Assembly (NCBI RefSeq): GCF_900142575.1
Contig: NZ_FRBI01000007.1
Span: forward strand, 186,001-250,000
Reading direction: 5' to 3'
From: Actinacidiphila paucisporea
GTDB taxonomy: Bacteria > Actinomycetota > Actinomycetes > Streptomycetales > Streptomycetaceae
Length of the DNA: 64,000 nucleotides
Shown here: positions 1,981 through 13,327 of the stretch, piece by piece
Position numbering within the stretch: position 1 is the first letter of the stretch
Layout: each line of letters begins with the position of its first letter
Notes under the pieces: generated by a model
The model's input: only the letters and a program-made list of their open reading frames with translations
What the model was told of the DNA's origin: nothing
Databases searched by the model: none
Program-made: the position numbers and the translations under genes

Positions 1981-4734
1981 TCAGCCCGTGTTGCGCAGGC
2001 CCGCGGCCACGCCGTTGACCGTCAGCAGCAGGGCCCGGGACAGCAGCGGGTCCGGCTCCTCGCCGCTCGCGGCGGCCGCGCGCTGCCGGGCCAGCAGGGT
2101 GACCTGGAGGTAGGAGATCGGGTCGAGGTACTGGTCGCGGATGTGGAAGGTCTGCGCCAGGACCGAGCTCGCGGCCAGCAGCTCCGACTCGCCGGTCAGC
2201 CGCAGCACCTCGCGCACCGTCAGCTCGTGCTCGGCCTCGATCGTCTCGAAGACGTGCCGCAGCTCGTCGGGCACCAGCGTCTCGACGTAGTGGCGGGCGA
2301 TCCGCAGGTCGGTCTTGGCCAGCGTCATCTCGACGTTGGACAGGAAGTTGCGGAAGAAGTGCCACTGGCCGTGCGCCTCTTCCAGCACCGAGTCCAGGCC
2401 GGCCTCGCGCGCCGCCTTCAGGCCCGTGCCGACGCCGTACCAGCCGGGGACGATCTGCCGGGACTGCGTCCAGCCGAAGACCCACGGGATGGCCCGCAGG
2501 CCGTCCAGGCCCGCGCCGGAGTCCGGGCGGCGGGACGGGCGCGAGCCCAGGTGCAGCTCGCCGAGCTGGTCGACGGGGGTGGAGGCGAAGAAGTACGGCG
2601 GCAGGTCGGGGTCCTCGACCAGCTTGCGGTAGGCGCCGTGCGCGGCCTCCGAGACGATGTCCATGGCCGCGTCCCAGCGGGTCAGCGCCTCGTCGGACTG
2701 CCGGGGCGAGGTGTGCAGCGCCGACGCCTGGAGCGTGGCGGCGACCGTCAGCTCCAGGTTCTCCCGCGCCAGCGAGGGGATCAGGTACTTGTCGGAGATG
2801 ACCTCGCCCTGCTCGGTCACCTTGATCTCGCCCTCCAGGGTCCCCCAGGGCTGGGCGAGGATCGCGGTGTGCGAGGGGCCGCCGCCGCGGCCGACGGTGC
2901 CGCCGCGGCCGTGGAAGAGCCGCAGCCGCACCCCGTGCCGGTGCGCCACGTCGCGCAGCCGGCGCTGGGCGCGGTGGATCTCCCACTGCGAGGTGGTGAT
3001 GCCGCCGAACTTCGAGGAGTCGGAGTAACCGAGCATCACCTCCTGCACGTCGCCGCGCAGCGACACCAGCCGCCGGTAGGACGGGTCGGACAGCATCTCG
3101 TCCAGCAGCTTGTCGGCGATCTTCAGCTCGTCGGTGGTCTCCAGCAGCGGCACGATGCCGATCCTGGCGACCCCGGTGTGCAGGTCGATCAGCCCGGCCT
3201 CGCGGGCGAGCACCGCAGCGGCGAAGACGTCGTCGGAGCCCAGGCACATCGAGATGATGTACGACTCCACGACCTCGGGCCCGAAGCGCTCGAAGGCCTC
3301 CCTGATGGTGTGGAAGACCCCGAGCGTCTTGGCGCCCGCCTCGTCCAGCGGCGCGGGCGTCGGCGCCAGCGGGCGGCGCGAGCGCAGCTCCTTGGCGAGC
3401 AGCTTGCGGCGGTAGTCGCGCGGCATGTCGGCGTACCGCCAGGACTCCTCGCCGAGCCGGTCGAAGAGCTGGCCCAGCGCGTGGTGGTGGGCCTCGGCGT
3501 GCTCGCGTACGTCCATCGTCGCCAGCTGCAGGCCGAACGCCGACAGGGTGCGGATCGTACGGTCCATCCGCCCGTCGGCGATCAGACCGCCGCGGTGGGC
3601 GCGCAGCGAGGCCTGGATCTGCTGGAGGTCGTCGAGCAGCCCCGCGGTGCCCAGGTAGTCGCGGCCCGGGACGTGCGGGGTGCCCGCGGCCAGCCGCTCG
3701 CGGGTGTTGATCAGCTTCTGCCGGATGCAGGTGGCCTTGAGCCGGTAGGGCTCCTCGGCGTTCAGCCGCTTGTAGCGCGGGCTGATCTCGGGCAGCGCCA
3801 CCAGGTCGGTGGCGAGCGAGTCGAGCAGCTCGCTGCTCGCGCCGGAGTTGCGGATCGAGTTGGACAGCGCGCCGCGCAGGAAGTCGACCAGCTGCAGCGC
3901 GTCCGTGATGCCGTGCTCGTGCTGCAGGATCAGCACGTCCCAGGTGACCTCGGGTGTCACGTTGGGGTTGCCGTCCCGGTCGCCGCCGATCCAGGTGCCG
4001 AAGGTCAGCGGGCGGGTCTGCGGCGGCAGCGGCACGCCGACCCGCTCCAGCTCGGCGGCCAGCTCCTCCAGGACGTCGCCGACCGCGCCCGCGTGCAGCT
4101 CGTCCAGGTAGTAGATCGCGTTGCGCGCCTCGTCGGCCGGCTCGGGGCGGACCACCCGCAGCTCGTCGGTCTGCCACAGCAGGTCGATGTTCTCGGCCAG
4201 CCGCAGGTCCGCGCGCCGCCGGTCGCCGGTGCTGCCCTCGCCCTGGCCATCCTGCTCCAGCAGCTCGGCGATCCGCCGCAGCTTGTTCAGCACCGAGCGG
4301 CGGGCCGCCTCGGTGGGGTGCGCGGTGAAGACCGGCCGCACGTTGAGGTTGCGGACCGACTCGCGTACGTGCTCGGCGTCGCCCTCCTTGAGCAGGTCCG
4401 CGGTCTGGGCGAGCAGGCCGCCCTCGACGGCGCGGCGGGAGCGCAGCTCGCGGCCGCGGTGCACCTGCTCGGTGACGTTCGCCAGGTGGAAGTAGGTGGA
4501 GAAGGCCCGGACCAGCTTCGCGGCGGTCTCCAGGTCGGTGTCGCCGAGCAGTGCGGCGGCGGCCTCCCCGTCGCTGCGGGTCAGTGCGCGGACCTTCTCG
4601 ACGAGGTCGAGCAGGTCCTGGCCCTCCTGCCGCACCAGGGTGCCGCCGAGCAGCTCTCCCAGGCGTCGGATGTCGGCACGCAGGGCGGTACTGCTTGCGG
4701 TACTGCTGTCCGGGGCGGTGTCGGCGCTGCTCAC
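1981..4734 (-). CDS. ppc: Phosphoenolpyruvate carboxylase
   Basis: 917 residues, the normal size for bacterial PEP carboxylase. It carboxylates PEP with bicarbonate to oxaloacetate, the main anaplerotic feed of the TCA cycle. Family signatures are visible: [13 protein letters not shown] (catalytic His) about residue 135, [12 protein letters not shown] about 240, [12 protein letters not shown] about 580, [15 protein letters not shown] about 625 and a C-terminal ending LRNTG. The GTG start at 4734 is preceded by CAAGGAGCC; upstream codons in the same frame are not protein-like. It is divergent from the histidine kinase gene and convergent with the TetR gene across a nested hairpin. Single-gene unit. 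Confidence 0.96.
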
Positions 4735-4989
4735 AGGTGCGGCTCCTTGTGCAGGGTAAGTGGACGGCGTACTCGCGGACCGCGCTGTCCGGCCGTTCAA
4801 GGATAGGTCGCGGTCGCTGCGGCGAGACGGCCAGCCCACCAGGCGGACACCGCGTCCTTGCGACTTCCTTCCCGCGTGCTTCCGGTGTCCGTACCGCAGG
4901 CATCGCCCGGACGGACGGCGGGCGACCCGCGGGTGACGCCCCGGTACGCGGCCGGTGCCCCGTTGCGGGCACCGCATACGCTGGACGCC

Positions 4990-6297
4990 ATGAGTACGAC
5001 GGGGGCGCACGTACCGGGCGACGGCGCCGGGGGAGCCGCGGCGGTCGCCGTCGCAGTGGCGCGCCGCCCCGGCTGGTGGTGGTGGCAGCGGCGGCGCGGG
5101 TTCGTCCTCGACGTGGCACTGGCCGGGGTCTCCGCGATCGAGTGCGCCTTCGAGGGCGCGACCTTCGCCGACCGCACCGGCATCCTCCCCGGCGCGGGCG
5201 CGCTGCTCGGTGTGCTCGTCGGCGCGGTCCTGGTGCTGCGGCGGCGCTGGCCGGTCGCGGTGGTGCTGGTCGGCATCGCCATGACGCCGGCCCAGATGGG
5301 CTTCCTGCTCTCCCTGGTCGGCCTCTACACGCTGGCCGCCTCCGAGGTGCCGCGGCGCATCACCGCCGCACTTGCCGGGATGAACGGCTTCGGCACCATG
5401 CTCGTCGCCTTCCTCCAGTTCCAGGACAATCTGCGCGACCCCGACAGCAGCAGCTCCCTGCACATGCCGCTGACGCTGGTCGTCGCCGCCCTGATGGCCC
5501 TCGGCCTGACCGGCCCCCCGGTTCTGCTCGGCCTCTACGTACGCGCCAGGCGCCGCCTTGTGGAGAGCCTGCGGGAACGGGCCGACGGCCTGGAGCGCGA
5601 GCTGGAACTGCTCGCCGAGAAGGCCGCGGAGCGCGCCGAGCGCGCCAGGGCCGAGGAGCGCACCCGGATCGCCCGCGACATGCACGACGTCGTCGCGCAC
5701 CGGGTGAGCCTGATGGTCGTGCATGCCGCGGCGCTCAAGGCGGTCGCGCTCAAGGACCCGCAGAAGGCGTCGGCCAGCGCCGAGATGCTCGGCGACATGG
5801 GACGGCAGGCGCTCACCGAACTGCGCCAGATGCTCGGTGTGCTGCGTACCGCCTCCGCGCCGGCGCCGGTGATCCCCGCGATGCGCCCCGAGCCCGACGC
5901 GGAGGGTCCGAGCCTGGCCCGGCTCGCCGCGCTGGTCGAGGAGTCGCAAGCCGCGGGAATGGGCGTCGAACTGACCGTCGAGGGCGCCCAGCGGCCCTGC
6001 GGCCCCCGTATCGAGGCCACCGTCTACCGCGTCGTGCAGGAGGCCCTCACCAACGTCCACAAGCACGCGGCGGGGGCCAACGCCGTCGTACGCCTGGCCT
6101 ACCGCGAGGCCGAGGTCGCGGTCCTCATCACCAACGGCCCCTCCGACGGCACCCCGCAGGCCGCCCTTCCCAGCGGCGGCCACGGCCTGCTCGGCATGAA
6201 GGAACGCGTCACGGCCCACGGCGGCGGCTTCGCCGCGGGCCCCACCGCGGACGGCGGCTTCCGCGTCTCGGCGATGGTGCCGCTGCGCAGCGGGTGA
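4990..6297 (+). CDS. Membrane sensor histidine kinase, HisKA_3 (NarL-partner) type, orphan
   Basis: 435 residues. The N-terminal half has about five hydrophobic segments (residues 38-60, 68-84, 88-112, 125-142, 162-185), then a coiled-coil linker and the HisKA_3 dimerisation box [15 protein letters not shown] with the phospho-acceptor His at residue 232. The HATPase domain follows, with [10 protein letters not shown] as the G box. Members of this class phosphorylate LuxR/NarL-type response regulators. No response regulator gene is adjacent on either side, so it is an orphan here. The start is ATG with -10 TACGCT (4977-4982) seven bases upstream, indicating a leaderless mRNA. Signal unknown. 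Confidence 0.88.
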
Positions 6298-6344
6298 GCC
6301 CTCCCGGCGAGTGACCACCGGGGGCGCGGAGGAGAGTCCGGGCG

Positions 6345-7250
6345 TCAGTCCTCGGCCGGCGGGCCGCCCCGCCCGGTGAGCGAGGCCAGCGTCGCCCGCA
6401 CATGCGCCAAATGGGACCGGATCTCGTCGCGGTGCTCCTCGTGCTCGCGCAGCAACCGCTCGCTCTCCCGCCGCACCTGCTCCTCGTGCGACCGCGCCTG
6501 CGCCAGCATCGAGGCGGCCCGCTCCTCCGCCTCGTCCTGCTGCGTGCGCAGCGCCTCCTCGGCGGCGGCCCGCTCCTTGTGCGCCGCGTCCAGCCGCCGT
6601 TCGGCGTCGGCGAGCAGGTCGGCGAGGCGGCTGTCGACGCCGGCGTCGTGCTCGCCGAGTTCGTGTTCGAGGGCGTCGAGGCGCTCCTGCCGCTCCTTGT
6701 CGGCCTCGGCCTCGCTGCGTTCGACGTCCTGCCGCATGGCGTCGAGCGTCTGACCGGCCTCGCCCCGTACGGTGTCGGCCTCGCCGCGGGCGTGGCCGAG
6801 GATCTCGGCGGCGCGGCTGCACGCCTCGTCGAGCGTCCGCTCGGCCTGGTCCTCCGCCGCGGCGAGCCGGGCCGAGGCGGCGGCGCGCGCCTCGTCCTGG
6901 AGGGTGCGGCGGGCGGTCTCCGCGGCGTCCCTGGCATATTGCGCCTCGACCTCGGCGCGTTCCCTTACGGCGGCGGCCTCTTCCTCGACCAGCCGCATCA
7001 GCTCCTGGGCGCCGGGGCCCAGCGACTCGAAGCCGTCCGGCGGCAGGGCGCCGACCTGCTCGCGCAGGGCGGCGCATTCGGCTTCCATCTCGTTGGCGAG
7101 GACGGTGAGCCGGGCGGCCCGCTCCCAGGCGGCGTCGCGGTCCTCGGACAGTTCTTCGAGGAATCGGTCGACCTGGTCGGGGCGGTAGCCGTGGCTGCGC
7201 CCGCGCGCCTGCTCGAAGCCTGTTGACGATGCGGTCGTGTTGCTGCTCAT
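6345..7250 (-). CDS. DivIVA-like coiled-coil cytoskeletal protein
   Basis: 301 residues, almost entirely charged and heptad-like (rich in Ala, Glu, Arg and Gln) from about residue 30 to 290, with no membrane segment or signal peptide. The N-terminal [14 protein letters not shown] is the short conserved DivIVA-type segment shared by Streptomyces proteins often labelled cellulose-binding protein. Those proteins are long coiled coils in the polarity/cytoskeleton group, such as FilP or Scy relatives. The label cellulose-binding should not be read as function. The ATG start has an upstream AAGGGGC. Probable role: filament-forming or scaffold protein. Which DivIVA subfamily cannot be settled by eye. 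Confidence 0.75.
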
Positions 7251-7460
7251 CCGTCTGCCCCTTTTACCGCTGGCGTACCGCTGCTGCTCCTCGCCGTTCC
7301 CTCGCGTCTATTTATGACTTATGACCGAATTGTACGAGCTACGACACTCCGAACTGTTCTCCTACCCGGAAAACGCCGGAGGGCCGGGCGGAGGGGATGC
7401 ACACCCCTCCACCCGGCCCTGCGGCCCGTACCGCCGGAAACCGTCCGGCCGTTGCCGCCG

Positions 7461-10151
7461 CTACAGCAGGCCGTCCCACATCTGCTCGATCAGCACCGAC
7501 CACCAGTTGTCCGGCGACGCGATCGCCGCCGGGTCCTGAGCGGCCAGCTCCGCCTGGAAGTCCACCGTCCAGCGGCCCGCCTGCTCGGGCGTGAGCCCGA
7601 TCCGCAGCCGCCACATGCGGCCGAGCAGCGCCAGGCTGCGGGCGAACTCGGGCAGGCTGGAGTTGACGAACTGCGGCGCCGCGGGCGGCGAACCGGGCGG
7701 CCCCGCCTCCAGCGGCAGCGCCACGATGTGCGCGGTGCCGTACTGCACGCACAGCTGGCGCCCGAAGTCGTTGCCCATCACCAGGTACGAGCCCGCGTCC
7801 GCAGCCGGCTGCACACCGCGCGAGGCGGCCAGCTCGGCGAGCGTCGGCACCGGCTGGCCGGGCTGTGCCTGCGCCCAGAAGAACGGCCCGAAGTCCACCG
7901 GCAGCCCGGCCCACATCAGGGTCTGCGCCACGATGTCGGGCACCCCCTGCCGGGAGACGGCCCGCTGGTCGAAGCGGAAGACCCCGGGCGGCCCGAAGGC
8001 ACCGGCGAGCTCCTGCCCGATCACGTCGAGGCCGACCGGCGGCACCCGCAGCACGGTGTGCGGATCCGGCATCGGCACCCGCTGCGGCTGCGGGCGGGCC
8101 GGGGCCCCCGCCACCTGGTGCAGTTCGCCCTGGTGCGTCAACAGGTGCTGCACGCCCTGCCGGCGGCTCGCGTGGTCCCGCCCGTAAGGCGCGGTGTGGC
8201 TGATCCGCACCTGCGGCCAGGTCTCCCTGATCATCCGGGTGCAGTAACCGCCGGGCAGGTCGCAGGACTCCAGCTCGGTGTGCAGTTCGAGCACCTGCTC
8301 GGGGCGCACCCCGGCTGACCGCAGCTCGTGCAGGATCTGCCACTCGGGATGCGGGGTGCCGGGCGCGGAGCGCCGGATGATCTGCTGCTCGCTGCCGTCC
8401 TGGCCGCGGTAGCGCAGCACCGCCATGTAGCCGGGCCCCACCGTCGGCACACCGGCCGGCGGCTGCGGGTAGCCGTAGGCGGGCGCGGGCGGCGGCGCGG
8501 CCGGCCCGCCCGCATAGGGCGGCGGCGGGGGCTGGTGTGCTTGGGGGGCACCGGCGAACGGGCCGGGCGGCGGAGGCTGAGGGGCTTGGGAGGCACCGGC
8601 GAAGGGGCCGGGCGGCGGGGGCGGCGCACCGCCCATGGCGGGCCCGGTGACCGCGGGGCCGGCCAGCATGGTGGCCGCGTAGTGCGGGTCGTTGCCCGCC
8701 GCGGGCGGCGGAGGCGTCGGACCGCCCGCGTAAGGCGGCGGGGGCGGGGGCGTACCGCCACCGGGTCCTCCCGCGAAGGGCGCGGGCGGCGGGGTGCCGG
8801 GGCCGGCCATCATGGTCGCGGCGTAGTGCGGGTCGTTGCCCGCGTGGGGCGGAGGTGTGCCGGGTCCGCCGCCGGCATAGGGCGGCGGTGGGGGCGGGGT
8901 GCTCTGACCGCCTGCATAAGGCGGCGGGGGCGGGGTGCTCTGGCCGCCCGCATAAGGCGGCGGGGGCGGCGTACCACCGCCGGGCATCCCGGCGAAGGGC
9001 ACGTGCGGCGCGCCGGCGCCGGGCCCCGCGAGCATGGTGGCGGCATAGTGCGGGTCGCCGGCCGCCGGGGGCGTCGGACCGCCCGCGTAAGGCGGCGGGG
9101 GCGGCGGCGTACCGCCCTGCGGGGACGGCGGAGCCGGCGGTACATTGCCGCGCACCGCCTTCGCCGTCTCCAGGCCCGAGATGTCCGCGGCACCGCTCGG
9201 TATATTGCCGGCGCTTCCGCCCGCCGGTGCCCCCAGGGACGGCGGCGGCAGGGGGACACCGGGGCCGCTCGGCGGGGGATAGGCGGAGCCGCCCATCGTG
9301 TGCGGCACCCCGCCGTGCGCCGGGGGAGGCGTCTGCCGGTCCGGGCCGCCGGCCTGGGGCCGGCCGCTGCCGCCGGGCAGCAGCTTGGTGCGCGCCTCGG
9401 ACGAGTCGGGCCGCGGCGGCTCCTCCCGCAGGTCGGCGCCGCTGAGCGGCGGTGCGAAGACGGTGGCGGGGACCGGCACCGACTCGCCCCCGCCGGAGTC
9501 GCTGACCGTCTTGCCCGCCCAACTGCCGCCGTCCTGGGGCCCGCTCTGCTCGGGCACGGCCGCGGACCGGCGTACGTAGTCGACACCGCCCGGCCCCTCG
9601 GACGCGGCCGCGGGCCGCTCACCGTCGGGCTCCTGGGGCGTGCTCTGCGCGGCGGCGGGTCGCCGGTAGTCGATCCGGCCCGCGGAATCCCCGGTGTCCG
9701 ACGGCGTCGCCGAGCCGTCGTCGCCGCTGTCGCTGCGGCTGCTGTCACTGCTACTGCTGCTGTCGGACCTGCGGTCCGGGATGCCCATGCGGTCCGCCGC
9801 GTCCTGCAGCCACTGCGGCGGGCTCAGCAGGAAGGACGTCGCCTCCAGGTCGATGCGCTGGGGCGGCTCGGGGGCCGCGTCGTTCGGCACTGCGCCGTAC
9901 TCCTCCTCGTAACGGCGGATCAGTTCGCCGATGGGCAGGGCGGGCCACAAGGTGGCGTCCCCGCTGTCCCGGGCGATGACCACCCGTACGCCCCCGCCGT
10001 CGTCCGCCGAAGGGCCGCCCTCGCGCGGCTCCGACCAGATGACGAAGCCGAGGTCGAACTCCCTGACCCGGACGTCGCGGTGCTCGTACGGCGGCACGTC
10101 GCCGTTGATCCACTGCTCCGCGCGCTCCTGCGCCTGAGCGAAAGTCACCAT
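7461..10151 (-). CDS. Imm35 (YrhB-like) - proline-rich linker - deaminase-like - SUKH-4 multidomain protein
   Basis: 896 residues, no signal peptide or membrane segment. Residues 1-105 resemble the YrhB/Imm35 immunity fold (VIWSEPREG, WPALPIGELIRRYEEEYG). Residues about 110-570 are low complexity: Pro/Gly-rich repeats such as PPPPPYAGG and DPHYAATMLAGP. Residues about 573-690 look like a nucleic-acid/nucleotide deaminase of the polymorphic-toxin class: HPE about residue 602 and ESCDLPGGYC about 628-637 supply the expected His, Glu and two Cys of the zinc site. Residues about 690-896 resemble a SUKH-4 domain. Start is ATG with GGAGGGG, 7 bases after the upstream gene. The toxin-like and immunity-like parts in one cytosolic chain are unusual. 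Domain names are from memory of these families. Confidence 0.7.
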   Translation of the reverse strand: MVTFAQAQERAEQWINGDVPPYEHRDVRVREFDLGFVIWSEPREGGPSADDGGGVRVVIARDSGDATLWPALPIGELIRRYEEEYGAVPNDAAPEPPQRIDLEATSFLLSPPQWLQDAADRMGIPDRRSDSSSSSDSSRSDSGDDGSATPSDTGDSAGRIDYRRPAAAQSTPQEPDGERPAAASEGPGGVDYVRRSAAVPEQSGPQDGGSWAGKTVSDSGGGESVPVPATVFAPPLSGADLREEPPRPDSSEARTKLLPGGSGRPQAGGPDRQTPPPAHGGVPHTMGGSAYPPPSGPGVPLPPPSLGAPAGGSAGNIPSGAADISGLETAKAVRGNVPPAPPSPQGGTPPPPPPYAGGPTPPAAGDPHYAATMLAGPGAGAPHVPFAGMPGGGTPPPPPYAGGQSTPPPPPYAGGQSTPPPPPPYAGGGPGTPPPHAGNDPHYAATMMAGPGTPPPAPFAGGPGGGTPPPPPPYAGGPTPPPPAAGNDPHYAATMLAGPAVTGPAMGGAPPPPPGPFAGASQAPQPPPPGPFAGAPQAHQPPPPPYAGGPAAPPPAPAYGYPQPPAGVPTVGPGYMAVLRYRGQDGSEQQIIRRSAPGTPHPEWQILHELRSAGVRPEQVLELHTELESCDLPGGYCTRMIRETWPQVRISHTAPYGRDHASRRQGVQHLLTHQGELHQVAGAPARPQPQRVPMPDPHTVLRVPPVGLDVIGQELAGAFGPPGVFRFDQRAVSRQGVPDIVAQTLMWAGLPVDFGPFFWAQAQPGQPVPTLAELAASRGVQPAADAGSYLVMGNDFGRQLCVQYGTAHIVALPLEAGPPGSPPAAPQFVNSSLPEFARSLALLGRMWRLRIGLTPEQAGRWTVDFQAELAAQDPAAIASPDNWWSVLIEQMWDGLL

Positions 10152-10158
10152 GTCCGGC

Positions 10159-11172
10159 TCACCCCTCCACCGCGGCGGCGGTGGCGAAACCACCGTCGAC
10201 CATCAGGTTCGCGACCGTCTCCAGCTCCGGCGGGTTGCCCGCGAGCCGCAGCAGGAAGGCGTCGATCGAGTCGCCGCACGGCAGCAGCAGTTCGGCGACC
10301 CGGTCCGCCGGGCTGTCCCAGTGGTCGCCGTCGCGCGCGTCGTCGTAGGCGCAGAACCACACCGAGCCCGCGCCCGCGCCCTTCACCCGCACCGCGAGCA
10401 GCCCGCCCTGGACGTAGCCGATCGCCAGGTAGTCCTTGGTGAGGTGGTCGCGCAGGCACTTGTTGACGTAGACCAGGTCATTGGCCGCCGCGGTGTCGCG
10501 GACGGTGAAGAACGGCTGGTCGATCAGCAGCCCCAACTCCGGGTCGAGCGCCACCCCGCGCGGCGCGCAGCCGCCCGCCGCTTTGAGGAAGGCCCGGTAG
10601 GAGCCCGGCAGCCGGTAGCCCAACTCCTCCTCGACGTCGCGCACCTGCGCCTCGCTGACCGCCACCGGGTCCTTGGGCAGCGCGAAATGCACCGGCCGGG
10701 TCTCCTGGAGCGGGCGGGTGCCGCGCTTGGCGGGGTCGGCGACGGACTCCGCGAGGCCGCCGTGGTGCCGCAGCAGCGCCTTGACCTCGGCGGGCACCAG
10801 TTCGAGCCGGCGGCCGCCCGCCACGTGGTGCCAGGTCCAGCCGTGCGGGGTGGCCACCGGCGGCAGGTTGCCCCACAACTCGTGGCCCGCGGCATGCAGC
10901 GCGGCATTCGCCGAGACGTAGTCGGTCAAACGCAGTTCGTCGATTCCGAAGCCCTCGGGGGGCTCGGCAATCTCGGCCGCGGCGCGGGCGTAGGGCGAGA
11001 AGTCGGGATGCCCCTCGTCGTCGATCCACACACCCTGCGGGTGGCGGCCGGCCCGGAGCGGATCCGGGAAGTGCACGACCTGCCCGGCGTAGGCCGCGTT
11101 CGGCGGCGCGGTCCGACCCCCCGCTCCGGGGTCGGGAGGCGCTGCCCCCAGCCCTTGCCGACCTGTCGTCAT
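10159..11172 (-). CDS. WHH-type HNH/EndoVII nuclease-like domain fused to SMI1/KNR4 (SUKH-1) domain
   Basis: 337 residues. The first about 145 residues carry the pattern of WHH-family nuclease toxins: GHPDFSPYA near residue 61, LRLTDYVSANAAL near 85, then TPHGWTWHHVAGG with WHH at 113-115, LELVP and RHHGG near 137. The His usually found after LVP (as in LVPxxLH) is Lys here (VPAEVK), so activity is uncertain. Residues about 165-325 are a SMI1/KNR4 SUKH domain (VRDVEEELGYRLPGSYRAFL). ATG start with AGGGGG nine bases upstream. It sits 7 bases before the deaminase/SUKH-4 gene, so the two are probably cotranscribed. No secretion signal. Confidence 0.72.
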   Translation of the reverse strand: MTTGRQGLGAAPPDPGAGGRTAPPNAAYAGQVVHFPDPLRAGRHPQGVWIDDEGHPDFSPYARAAAEIAEPPEGFGIDELRLTDYVSANAALHAAGHELWGNLPPVATPHGWTWHHVAGGRRLELVPAEVKALLRHHGGLAESVADPAKRGTRPLQETRPVHFALPKDPVAVSEAQVRDVEEELGYRLPGSYRAFLKAAGGCAPRGVALDPELGLLIDQPFFTVRDTAAANDLVYVNKCLRDHLTKDYLAIGYVQGGLLAVRVKGAGAGSVWFCAYDDARDGDHWDSPADRVAELLLPCGDSIDAFLLRLAGNPPELETVANLMVDGGFATAAAVEG

Positions 11173-11280: not shown

Positions 11281-12009
11281 TCAGTTGCCCTTGGCCGCGG
11301 TGCGGAGTTTGGCGACCTGCTTGACCGGGATCGTGCGGCGCAGCGTCGCCGGCTTGTGGTCGGTGCGCACCGTCTCGAAGGCCGCCGTCGTCTCGCCGGC
11401 CCTGATCACGGTCACCAGCACCTGGCCCGCGGCGCCCTTGGAGGTGTCGCCGATCGTGTACGACACCCGCTGGTCGCCGAGCCCGGGGTCGCCGGCCACG
11501 GATTTGACCTGGAAGTGCGTGGTCACCCCGCCGCGCGTCACCGCGTAGTCGTGGCAGACGGCGAGCGCCGCGGTCAGGTCGTCGAGGACCGCCTTCGCGT
11601 CGCCCACCTTGTACGAGGCGATGACGGTCAGCGAGATGGCCTTGGCGCCCTTGTCCGGGTCCGTGGTGTCGGTGACCATCGCGCCGGTGTAGACCTGCCG
11701 CGGGTGCTTGGGCCGGCTGGTCCACTGGTCGACCACCGGCTGGCAGGCCGGCACGTCGGCCTTCGCCGCGGCGCCCAGCAGCAGGTCCTTGCTGCCGGCC
11801 GGCAGCACCTGGACGTGCGGCACGTCGGAGGAGGTCAGCAGGGCCGACGTCAGCTTGGCGATGGGCACGGCGCCGGAAGCCACCGGGCCCGGCTTGTCGT
11901 CGCCGCCTCCGCCGCCGCAGCCGGTCGCGAGCGCGAGGGCGGGCAGCAGCGCGGCGGCGGCCACGGCCCGCCTACCGGTCAGTAGACGATGGTCTGCGCG
12001 TATCGGCAT
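11281..12009 (-). CDS. Secreted lipoprotein, paralogue of the next gene
   Basis: 242 residues. A lipoprotein signal peptide is plain: basic start, hydrophobic core about residues 13-28 and lipobox LATGC with Cys at about 31, followed by a Gly/Asp-rich linker. The remaining about 190 residues form one extracellular domain with two conserved Cys (ACQP and VCHD) and the element TSSDVPHVQVLP. The neighbour at 12166-12891 has the same layout (TDSDVPGWTIQP, VCQPL, GCTGF), so the two are tandem duplicates. The fold resembles extracellular sensor-type lipoprotein domains in actinobacteria, but I do not recognise a function. The ATG has AGGGGA upstream. Confidence 0.8.
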   Translation of the reverse strand: MPIRADHRLLTGRRAVAAAALLPALALATGCGGGGGDDKPGPVASGAVPIAKLTSALLTSSDVPHVQVLPAGSKDLLLGAAAKADVPACQPVVDQWTSRPKHPRQVYTGAMVTDTTDPDKGAKAISLTVIASYKVGDAKAVLDDLTAALAVCHDYAVTRGGVTTHFQVKSVAGDPGLGDQRVSYTIGDTSKGAAGQVLVTVIRAGETTAAFETVRTDHKPATLRRTIPVKQVAKLRTAAKGN

Positions 12010-12165: not shown

Positions 12166-12891
12166 CTACTTCCTCGCCGCGAGCGCCGCCTTGAGCTTCT
12201 CGCTCTGCTTGCGCACCACGTCGATGGGCAGCGGGCCCGCGCCGCCGCTGGACTTCACCGACACGTACGCGGTCACCGTGTCGCCGGTCTGCACGACGGC
12301 CACCAGCGCCGCACCGGTCTTCTTGTCCGCGGCGTCGTTCATCTGATAGGAGACCGACTCGTCGCCGGTCGGCACCGCGGGGCCCTTGCTGACGGTGAAC
12401 GGCGTCTTCGTGCCCGTGCTGTCGGTCGCGGTGAAGCCCGTGCAGCCGGCGAGCGCGGTCTTGACCGACTCGATGACCTTCTTCGCGTCGCCCGGCGCGT
12501 GGCTGGCCACCAGCATCTGGTTGATCACCTCGGGCGTCGCGCCGCTGGTCGCCGTGGTCTTGGCGAAGGCGGCGCCGACGAAGGCCATCCGGTGGATCCT
12601 CGGATTGCTGCTGGTGATGTCGGCCAGCGGCTGGCAGACCGGCTTGTCCGCGGTCAGCCTGGAGGTGTCGGAGGAGTCGGCGGTCTGCGACGGCTGGATC
12701 GTCCAGCCGGGCACGTCGGAGTCCGTGACCAGGGCCTTGCTGAGCTGCGCGGTCGTCAGCGGCGCTTTGCCGCTGAGGATGGTCGACGTGCCGTCGGGGC
12801 CCTTCGTGGAGTCCGAGGAGGAGGAGCAGGCGGCGGCGAGCAGCAGCGCGGGGAGCGCGGCGGCGGCCAGACGGAGCCGGGTCTTGTGCAT
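12166..12891 (-). CDS. Secreted lipoprotein, paralogue of the adjacent lipoprotein
   Basis: 241 residues. Signal peptide with lipobox LLAAAC; Cys at about residue 22, then a Ser-rich linker. The mature domain shares with its neighbour the pattern AQLSKALVTDSDVPGW, CQPLADI, AFVGAAF and QTGDTVTAYVSVK. ATG at 12891 was chosen; an in-frame GTG three codons upstream (12900) is equally possible since the AGGGA lies only three bases from it. The two lipoproteins are encoded on the minus strand between the WHH/SUKH gene and the divergent YwqJ/SUKH-3 pair. Function unknown; a role linked to the surrounding toxin-type genes is only a possibility. Confidence 0.8.
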   Translation of the reverse strand: MHKTRLRLAAAALPALLLAAACSSSSDSTKGPDGTSTILSGKAPLTTAQLSKALVTDSDVPGWTIQPSQTADSSDTSRLTADKPVCQPLADITSSNPRIHRMAFVGAAFAKTTATSGATPEVINQMLVASHAPGDAKKVIESVKTALAGCTGFTATDSTGTKTPFTVSKGPAVPTGDESVSYQMNDAADKKTGAALVAVVQTGDTVTAYVSVKSSGGAGPLPIDVVRKQSEKLKAALAARK

Positions 12892-13327
12892 CGAGGTCAC
12901 ATTCCCTGGTTCGGCGGTGTGGGGGGGACCCGCGCGAGCGGGCCGACTGCCGATCCTCCCTGCCCGCGGTGCCCCGCGTCCATGCCGGGCCTGACGCTGT
13001 GCCCCGCCTGTGCGGGGCCCGCGGACGGCGGGTGGTCCGGTGCCGGTGTCCGCGACGCGGCAATGTACGCCGTGGACGCGTGGGCGCCGCTGTGTACGGA
13101 GCCGGCCCGCCTATGCGTTTACGCGCTTCGGATGTGCCGTTCATGTGTTCGCTGTGTACGCGCTGTGCCTGCTGTGTCGGCGTTCGGTCACCCGACGGTG
13201 ACATGGCCCACACACAATGGGCGCGGCGCCGCGTTCCGCTTCCCCATCGCGTGGCCCGTTTGGCACTCTGATCGACATACGGGGGATCGCCCGCCCCGGC
13301 GGGCGGACGGAGGGATGCACGTAAAAC
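12892..13327. promoter_or_regulatory. Divergent intergenic region with inverted repeats
   Basis: 436 bases between the lipoprotein (minus) and the deaminase gene (plus) with no convincing gene; composition is less GC-rich than neighbours around 13130-13280. It holds the inverted repeat GTCACC-CGAC-GGTGAC at 13187-13202 and, just after it, GCCCA-N7-TGGGC. Both lie about 100-140 bases before the deaminase start and are candidates for a regulator site. I could not fix a -35/-10 pair with confidence. Confidence 0.4.

Follow-up and report, generated by a model that had tools for sequence, protein, structure and literature searches.

A toxin-type deaminase with an intact zinc site, joined to SUKH-4 in one chain, is core to most Streptomycetaceae

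The domains of polymorphic toxins tend to have a sporadic distribution, and are mostly seen in weapons used between bacteria. XOO_2897-type deaminases belong to this world, and PMC3482391 lists SUKH among the immunity proteins associated with them and records that SUKH is occasionally fused to toxins and to immunity domains, so that a chain combining the two is of a kind already known. Here we describe such a chain from Actinacidiphila paucisporea, encoded in a 64,000-nucleotide stretch of contig NZ_FRBI01000007.1 (hereafter the window), in which an N-terminal domain is followed by a very long linker, a deaminase and a SUKH-4 domain. Most Streptomycetaceae carry this gene as part of their core set, and it is under purifying selection. 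The explanation that we prefer, tentatively, is that it encodes a domesticated deaminase from a toxin-immunity lineage, checked in cis by SUKH-4, with a linker that would serve as a docking or phospho-switch array.

Domain order, zinc site and distribution of the core gene

A sequence-only reading of the window had placed a deaminase and SUKH-4 on one open reading frame (ORF), and both domains were recovered by Pfam within exactly the interval it gave (Table 1): XOO_2897-deam (PF14440) at 126.7 bits against a cut-off of 27, and SUKH-4 (PF14435) at 165.8 bits against a cut-off of 25.5. Beyond these two families the 896-aa chain had no Pfam match at E<=0.1, nor did Pfam find at its N-terminus a trafficking domain such as WXG100 or RHS, and a by-eye reading of the N-terminus suggests that the chain is cytosolic. 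The spacer between deaminase and SUKH-4 is about 40 residues.

The zinc residues, described in the same reading as HPE followed by two cysteines, occur in the expected order and are invariant. H, E, C and C are intact in 203/203 core loci, representing 173 unique domain sequences (this set excludes L002 and L165-L212, which are of other kinds, and some genomes are present in both collections from which it derives). The deaminase had a median dN/dS of 0.076, compared with 0.131 in SUKH-4, across 45 pairs drawn from 10 chosen close loci. A structural model of the deaminase and SUKH-4 part was of low confidence (pLDDT 58.9, pTM 0.41), with strands and helices in the usual deaminase order. When this model was used in Foldseek, the first 20 rows were APOBEC, AID and blasticidin S deaminases, the best at E 0.02 and none at E<=0.001, while VIA-align returned zinc deaminases in 49/50 rows over model residues 1-118, with Z scores of 4.3-6.5 that are middling for this tool. 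A sequence search of the PDB gave three chance-like matches and no relative at a meaningful E. The domain is probably an enzyme acting on nucleic acid or nucleotides.

The distribution of the gene was followed in several sets of genomes. PF14440 was present in 35/35 genomes of the genus, with one copy each at 127-134 bits and 22 further, weaker matches scattered among them. The window's own genome holds a second, weaker match (G000:C27:125167-125412; L002, L179), within an open frame of 145 aa close to the end of a contig. A deaminase-SUKH-4 profile had a strong match in 180/182 genomes of the same family and a weak match in 3/15 genomes from other families of the order. The two same-family genomes that gave no match may owe this to incomplete assembly, since their upstream gene sits 1.2-1.4 kb from where its contig begins. 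Among 394 genomes drawn across the class, the 40 same-family genomes listed had a match, as did 4 of one other family, and 350 genomes, most of them not listed by family, had none. A further draw of 200 genomes of the family, searched with a profile of short-linker relatives (described below), matched either the core gene or a relative strongly in 192; three genomes of one genus had no match, and only weak matches came from one poor assembly and from four genomes of a second genus. The core gene is present in pieces in the poor assembly, and it was not found in 3/3 and 4/4 genomes of the two genera, with a second check agreeing. The gene is thus not a sporadic, variable C-terminal toxin cassette, being core in 180/182 genomes with the same C-terminal domains in 203/203 loci.

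For comparison of gene neighbourhoods and linkers we used a named collection comprising the best 80 of 422 stretches encoding a relative, of which 79 are titled as Streptomycetaceae genera and one as an Actinomycetes metagenome-assembled genome. For 16 of the 79 this family placement also appears in the tree described below. No relatives were found in viral contigs.

The gene was not recovered from two genera and so is no requirement of the family as a whole, which counts against a housekeeping enzyme acting constantly on tRNA, mRNA or a free nucleotide, with SUKH-4 and the N-terminal domain as scaffolds. Such an enzyme would account for the core distribution, the single copy within the genus, the low dN/dS and the intact site. 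However, the family models come from toxin systems, and SUKH-4 together with a SUKH-1 domain in the adjoining gene points to conflict, so we regard this role as unlikely.

Table 1. Features of the core gene and its neighbours in the window
Feature	Coordinates	Strand	Basis or remark
Core deaminase::SUKH-4 gene, 896 aa	7461..10151	minus	ATG at 10151, stop codon end at 7461
Domain at the N-terminus (residues 1-95), predicted alpha-beta4-alpha, at best Imm35-like	9867..10151	minus	conservation, model pLDDT 64.7
Conserved segment IDLEATSFLLSPPQWLQDAADRMGIPD, residues 100-126	9774..9854	minus	sequence conservation
Pro/Gly/Ala-rich linker, residues ~127-569 (~443 residues)	8445..9773	minus	
Thr motif ATVFAPP	9447..9467	minus	
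Thr motif RTKLLPGG	9369..9392	minus	
Thr motif LETAKAVRG	9147..9173	minus	
Repeat DPHYAATMLAGP, copy 1, residues 366-377	9021..9056	minus	
Repeat DPHYAATMMAGP, copy 2, residues 440-451	8799..8834	minus	
Repeat DPHYAATMLAGP, copy 3, residues 488-499	8655..8690	minus	
XOO_2897-type deaminase domain, residues ~572-672	8136..8438	minus	PF14440, E 4.3e-37
HPE, residues 601-603, zinc ligand and catalytic Glu	8343..8351	minus	
CDLPGGYC, two zinc cysteines C630 and C637 (C-x6-C)	8241..8264	minus	
SUKH-4 domain, residues ~712-890	7482..8018	minus	PF14435, E 1.4e-48
Upstream partner gene, WHH (HNH/Endo VII) nuclease domain::SUKH-1, 337 aa	10159..11172	minus	PF14414 5.6e-13, PF12639 1.1e-8, PF09346 3.1e-13
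WHH motif region of partner gene, third family His = Lys	10750..10854	minus	
Downstream gene, DivIVA-like coiled coil, 301 aa	6345..7250	minus	PF05103 E 1e-5, 25.9 bits, below cut-off 28

The linker and its Thr motif

The linker is close to the roughly 450 Pro-rich residues first proposed for it, although Gly and Ala are abundant as well. We examined 124 unique linkers, taken from the 139 readable chains among the 203 loci, and found that they cannot be aligned and range from 250 to 951 aa, with a median of 440. Across this variable background one short pattern, [AP]T[MVQ][LFMVI][AV], occurs in 452 copies against 2.2 expected from shuffles. It is present in 123/124 linkers, and the sole exception (L162) has the near variant ATMLS. 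The enrichment is specific to Thr, since the Ser version was observed 0 times against 3.0 expected from shuffles. Other recurring Thr motifs in the linkers are TVFAP, [KR]TxL[LM], PTQ[LM]V and T[AS][KR]A. The repeat DPHYAATM(L/M)AGP, said by the sequence-only reading to be present several times, occurs in three copies, and its core forms part of the family-wide motif. When the exact DNA pattern for ATMLAGP was sought in the window's genome it was found twice in the core gene and once in a LacI-type regulator, with no second array (looser forms were not searched). Seventeen of the 80 named loci (L032-L111) stop at a contig edge inside the chain, upstream of the deaminase, which suggests that the repetitive linker is a common assembly break point and that the gene may be annotated as truncated.

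FHA domains recognise phospho-Thr and not phospho-Ser. A motif confined to Thr therefore fits a phospho switch, and we consider a plain docking peptide just as likely. Acidic residues before the motif Thr are rare in the core linkers, a context that differs from the Mycobacterium tuberculosis kinase motif given in PMC6888350. The accessible parts of two phosphoproteome papers (PMC9600765, PMC6888350) contain no mention of SUKH or SMI1.

The repeats had also been read as a sensing or cleavage element, such that cutting the linker would split toxin from immunity and release a self-inhibited enzyme. Self-inhibition is plausible, because SUKH-4 lies in the deaminase's own chain, and so is sensing or docking by the repeats, because they are conserved. 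The release mechanism, however, is contradicted by the order of the chain. The repeats (residues 366-499) separate the N-terminal domain from the deaminase, whereas SUKH-4 directly follows the deaminase. Cleavage at the repeats would therefore detach the deaminase from nothing but an N-terminal domain whose Imm35 identity is unproven, and would leave deaminase and SUKH-4 joined. Nothing in the repeats marks a protease site, neither a protease nor its site was identified, and 10/35 relatives with an intact zinc site do without a long linker. Release of an active toxin by a protease cutting at DPHYAATM is thus very unlikely, in spite of a motif that is both conserved and repeated.

Relatives in toxin loci and the readings they favour

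Further insight into the origin of the chain comes from a set of relatives (L165-L172, L178, L256-L285) that carry the N-terminal domain, deaminase and SUKH-4 in the same order as the core chain, with a linker of about 15 residues. In a tree the core clade has support of 100/100, and the short-linker relatives fall outside it in separate clades. Their zinc site is lost in 25/35 unique rows, which takes at least two changes on the tree, and kept in 10/35, so the deaminase domain can persist without its site. A connection between linker and active site, for which the first 9/9 short-linker relatives were all site-less, was dropped once the wider draw contained the 10/35 that combine an intact site with a short linker.

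Several relatives reside in toxin loci. In L314 and L315 the relative begins at the end of a WXG100_2::Gln_amidase (papain fold toxin 1) gene. In L178 a 1503-aa ORF (4683-9191) combines WXG100_2 with papain fold toxin 1 (Gln_amidase) and XOO_2897-deam. About 3 kb away is a relative composed of an Imm35-like domain, a site-less deaminase and SUKH-4; from its domains this locus reads as a two-warhead toxin accompanied by a matching two-part immunity protein. A WXG100_2 protein is found near the relative in L166, and in L307-L311, five loci whose site is intact, a SUKH-4 protein is encoded upstream. A deaminase fragment in L307 scored 23.5 bits, below the cut-off. WXG100 calls made by eye on small ORFs of L166, L169, L178, L314 and L317 were not upheld by Pfam, and the WXG100 assignments given here come from longer proteins. 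L173-L177 and L180 show the reverse order: a single chain opens with SUKH-4 and closes with a deaminase whose H, E and Cys are intact. In L173 this gene (5926-6774) is preceded by a deaminase toxin gene and a SUKH-4 gene. The lineage thus looks as though it belongs to toxin loci, where it is immunity-like, and as though the core gene has left them.

The identity of the N-terminal domain bears on the same question. This domain is well conserved in the alignment of core chains, the N-terminus being readable in 57/80 named loci. It had been called Imm35, a label for which Pfam gave no match (0/22 N-terminal domains at E<=1, and none among the Pfam matches of 7 relatives). A distant relation is nonetheless plausible: hhalign of the domain against 13 Imm35 members gave a probability of 44.8% (P 2.2e-4), compared with 0.36% and 0.66% for two unrelated control comparisons. 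A fold search with a model of the domain, whose confidence is given in Table 1, returned no convincing match. We use the term Imm35-like, unproven as it is, because of the profile comparison and because L314 and L315 adjoin a papain fold toxin 1 gene. Imm35 is paired with Tox-PL1 (papain fold toxin 1) in PMC3482391. No papain fold toxin 1 neighbour of the core gene was found in the stretch examined.

These observations would suit an orphan immunity protein that has become fixed, with the N-terminal domain directed against a papain-fold toxin, SUKH-4 directed against a deaminase toxin, and the deaminase-like domain acting as a decoy or dimerisation part in which catalysis would be immaterial. 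The toxin genes abutting or near the relatives in L314, L315 and L178, the reverse-order gene behind a deaminase toxin in L173, the loss of the zinc site in most relatives and the associations given in PMC3482391 (Imm35 with Tox-PL1; SUKH, among others, with XOO2897 deaminases), all speak for an immunity role, which we hold to be possible, if doubtful. Three findings pull the other way. The zinc residues are kept throughout the core loci and in 10/35 relatives; the deaminase is more constrained than SUKH-4 by dN/dS; and no toxin domain was seen around the core gene (ORFs between 9.7 and 22.5 kb of the window listed and six neighbours assessed by eye or Pfam, with the rest of the window not searched for toxins).

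A site retained at every core locus, in a domain under tighter constraint than SUKH-4, favours an enzyme restrained in cis, just as the toxin-locus origin and frequent site loss favour an immunity role. In the restrained-enzyme reading, which we prefer, the gene would descend from immunity proteins of type VII (WXG100) toxin loci and would have become fixed on the chromosome in most Streptomycetaceae. The XOO_2897-type deaminase, with a retained zinc site, would probably act on nucleic acid or nucleotides, and SUKH-4, right behind it, would most likely keep the enzyme inactive in cis. The disordered linker would be a docking array, whose roughly four [AP]T[MVQ][LF][AV] copies may bind a partner or be phosphorylated on Thr, and in this way govern the timing of the chain's action or its location. 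Whereas the domain order, the invariant catalytic residues, the purifying selection, the core distribution, the conserved neighbours and the Thr-specific enrichment are observed here, catalysis, inhibition in cis, the motif partner and the trigger are our inferences.

Several points weigh against this reading. The structural model is too weak to place SUKH-4 relative to the active site. The deaminase is highly conserved along its whole length (mean column identity 86%, alignment A1), so that invariant zinc residues are alone no proof of catalysis. The Thr motif is unlike the few bacterial phosphorylation motifs quoted in PMC6888350, and no paper with four forms of the motif was found in the open-access literature. 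Nor does an intact site depend on a long linker, given the short-linker relatives in which H, E, C and C persist. Finally, the relatives adjoin toxin genes, as immunity genes do, and the core chain may simply be an immunity protein.

Another way to view the cis arrangement is as a guard. The cis deaminase would be a stand-in ligand occupying SUKH-4, a foreign XOO_2897-type toxin would take SUKH-4 in trans, and the cell's own deaminase would be freed for alarm or for killing of the invaded compartment, with the Thr array linking the chain to signalling by kinases or to a particular hyphal position. This is distinctly improbable in our estimate. If true, streptomycetes would carry a built-in sensor of toxin invasion made from the weapon itself.

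The significance of the gene is that a toxin-type domain with an intact catalytic site is core, under strong purifying selection and tied to a probable inhibitor across most of an antibiotic-rich family. If the deaminase is active, every such cell holds a restrained deaminase of nucleic acid or nucleotides, with a bearing on mutation, competition or development. The contrast with the site-less relatives makes the choice between immunity protein, decoy and enzyme directly testable, and the Thr motif offers a clear handle for finding a regulator.

Neighbouring genes and comparison with known systems

The core gene has conserved neighbours on both sides. A WHH::SUKH-1 gene, which lies outside the interval covered by the sequence-only reading, is found upstream on the same strand in 61/80 named loci; of the 19 loci without it, 17 stop inside the chain, L047 stops just upstream of the chain, and L043, with 3.4 kb upstream and no WHH gene, looks misjoined. 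The gap between this gene and the core gene is 5-9 bp in 54/57 chains, the others having -7, 36 and 40. This partner is a second single chain of toxin-type domain and SUKH. Downstream, a DivIVA-like gene on the same strand is present in 79/80 loci, at 110-402 bp in 59 and at 532-2825 bp in 20. Over the 80 loci no steady association was seen for the window's PEP carboxylase, ABC transporter and lipoprotein genes. Two tandem lipoprotein-like genes (11281-12009 and 12166-12900) with PknH_C-like extracellular domains have a match beside the core gene in 17/80 loci.

PMC3482391 gives the Tox-WHH family motif as WHH, L, H, HxG. The partner gene matches PF14414 above that family's own cut-off, yet lacks the full motif. 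WHH, L and HHG are present, but the third His is Lys in 59/59 readable rows (59 of 61, L057 and L086 being unreadable), a position at which the canonical WHH member L306 has His. The nuclease of the partner is thus probably impaired. SUKH-1-fused WHH relatives in another family of the order have lost other motif positions (L286-L290, L302, L305). The His to Lys change is the only point in favour of a relic without function, a view that is hardly credible for a core gene with such low dN/dS values, an invariant site and a frame that stays open through linkers of 250-951 aa.

PADLOC gave no match for the core chain or the WHH gene; the DivIVA-like gene matched ZorA weakly, in a coiled-coil-like way. 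Zorya, a polymorphic toxin and a canonical WHH nuclease were considered as identities and not adopted. No study of this chain was found in the open-access literature, where subscription papers are mostly outside coverage, and no report was found there of a core member that combines an intact deaminase with a Thr-array linker and adjoins a second toxin::SUKH gene.

With the XOO_2897-like deaminase domain of polymorphic toxins the core chain shares the HMM match, the H-x-E and two spaced Cys, and the association with SUKH; it differs in having no trafficking domain that we could see, in being core and single-copy rather than sporadic, and in carrying SUKH-4 in the same chain. Fusions of SUKH immunity proteins to toxin or immunity domains are known, as PMC3482391 records, whereas the core gene is fixed in most Streptomycetaceae and has an intact deaminase and a linker of several hundred residues with a Thr array. 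The short-linker relatives have the same three domains in one order, but differ in linker length, in the frequent loss of the site, in the residence of several in WXG100 toxin loci and in their separate clades. DddA and other deaminase toxins belong to the same zinc deaminase superfamily, yet are secreted weapons of other subfamilies, DddA being SCP1.201-like, and the text of PMC7901873 has no mention of XOO or SUKH. The resemblance to CapRel, as described in PMC9712102, would be one of working only: both place a toxin and an inhibitor in one chain, which for the core gene follows from domain order alone, and CapRel's autoinhibition is relieved by a trigger. CapRel is, however, an unrelated enzyme, a tRNA pyrophosphokinase, with a demonstrated anti-phage role, whereas the core chain, in PADLOC, matches no defence system.

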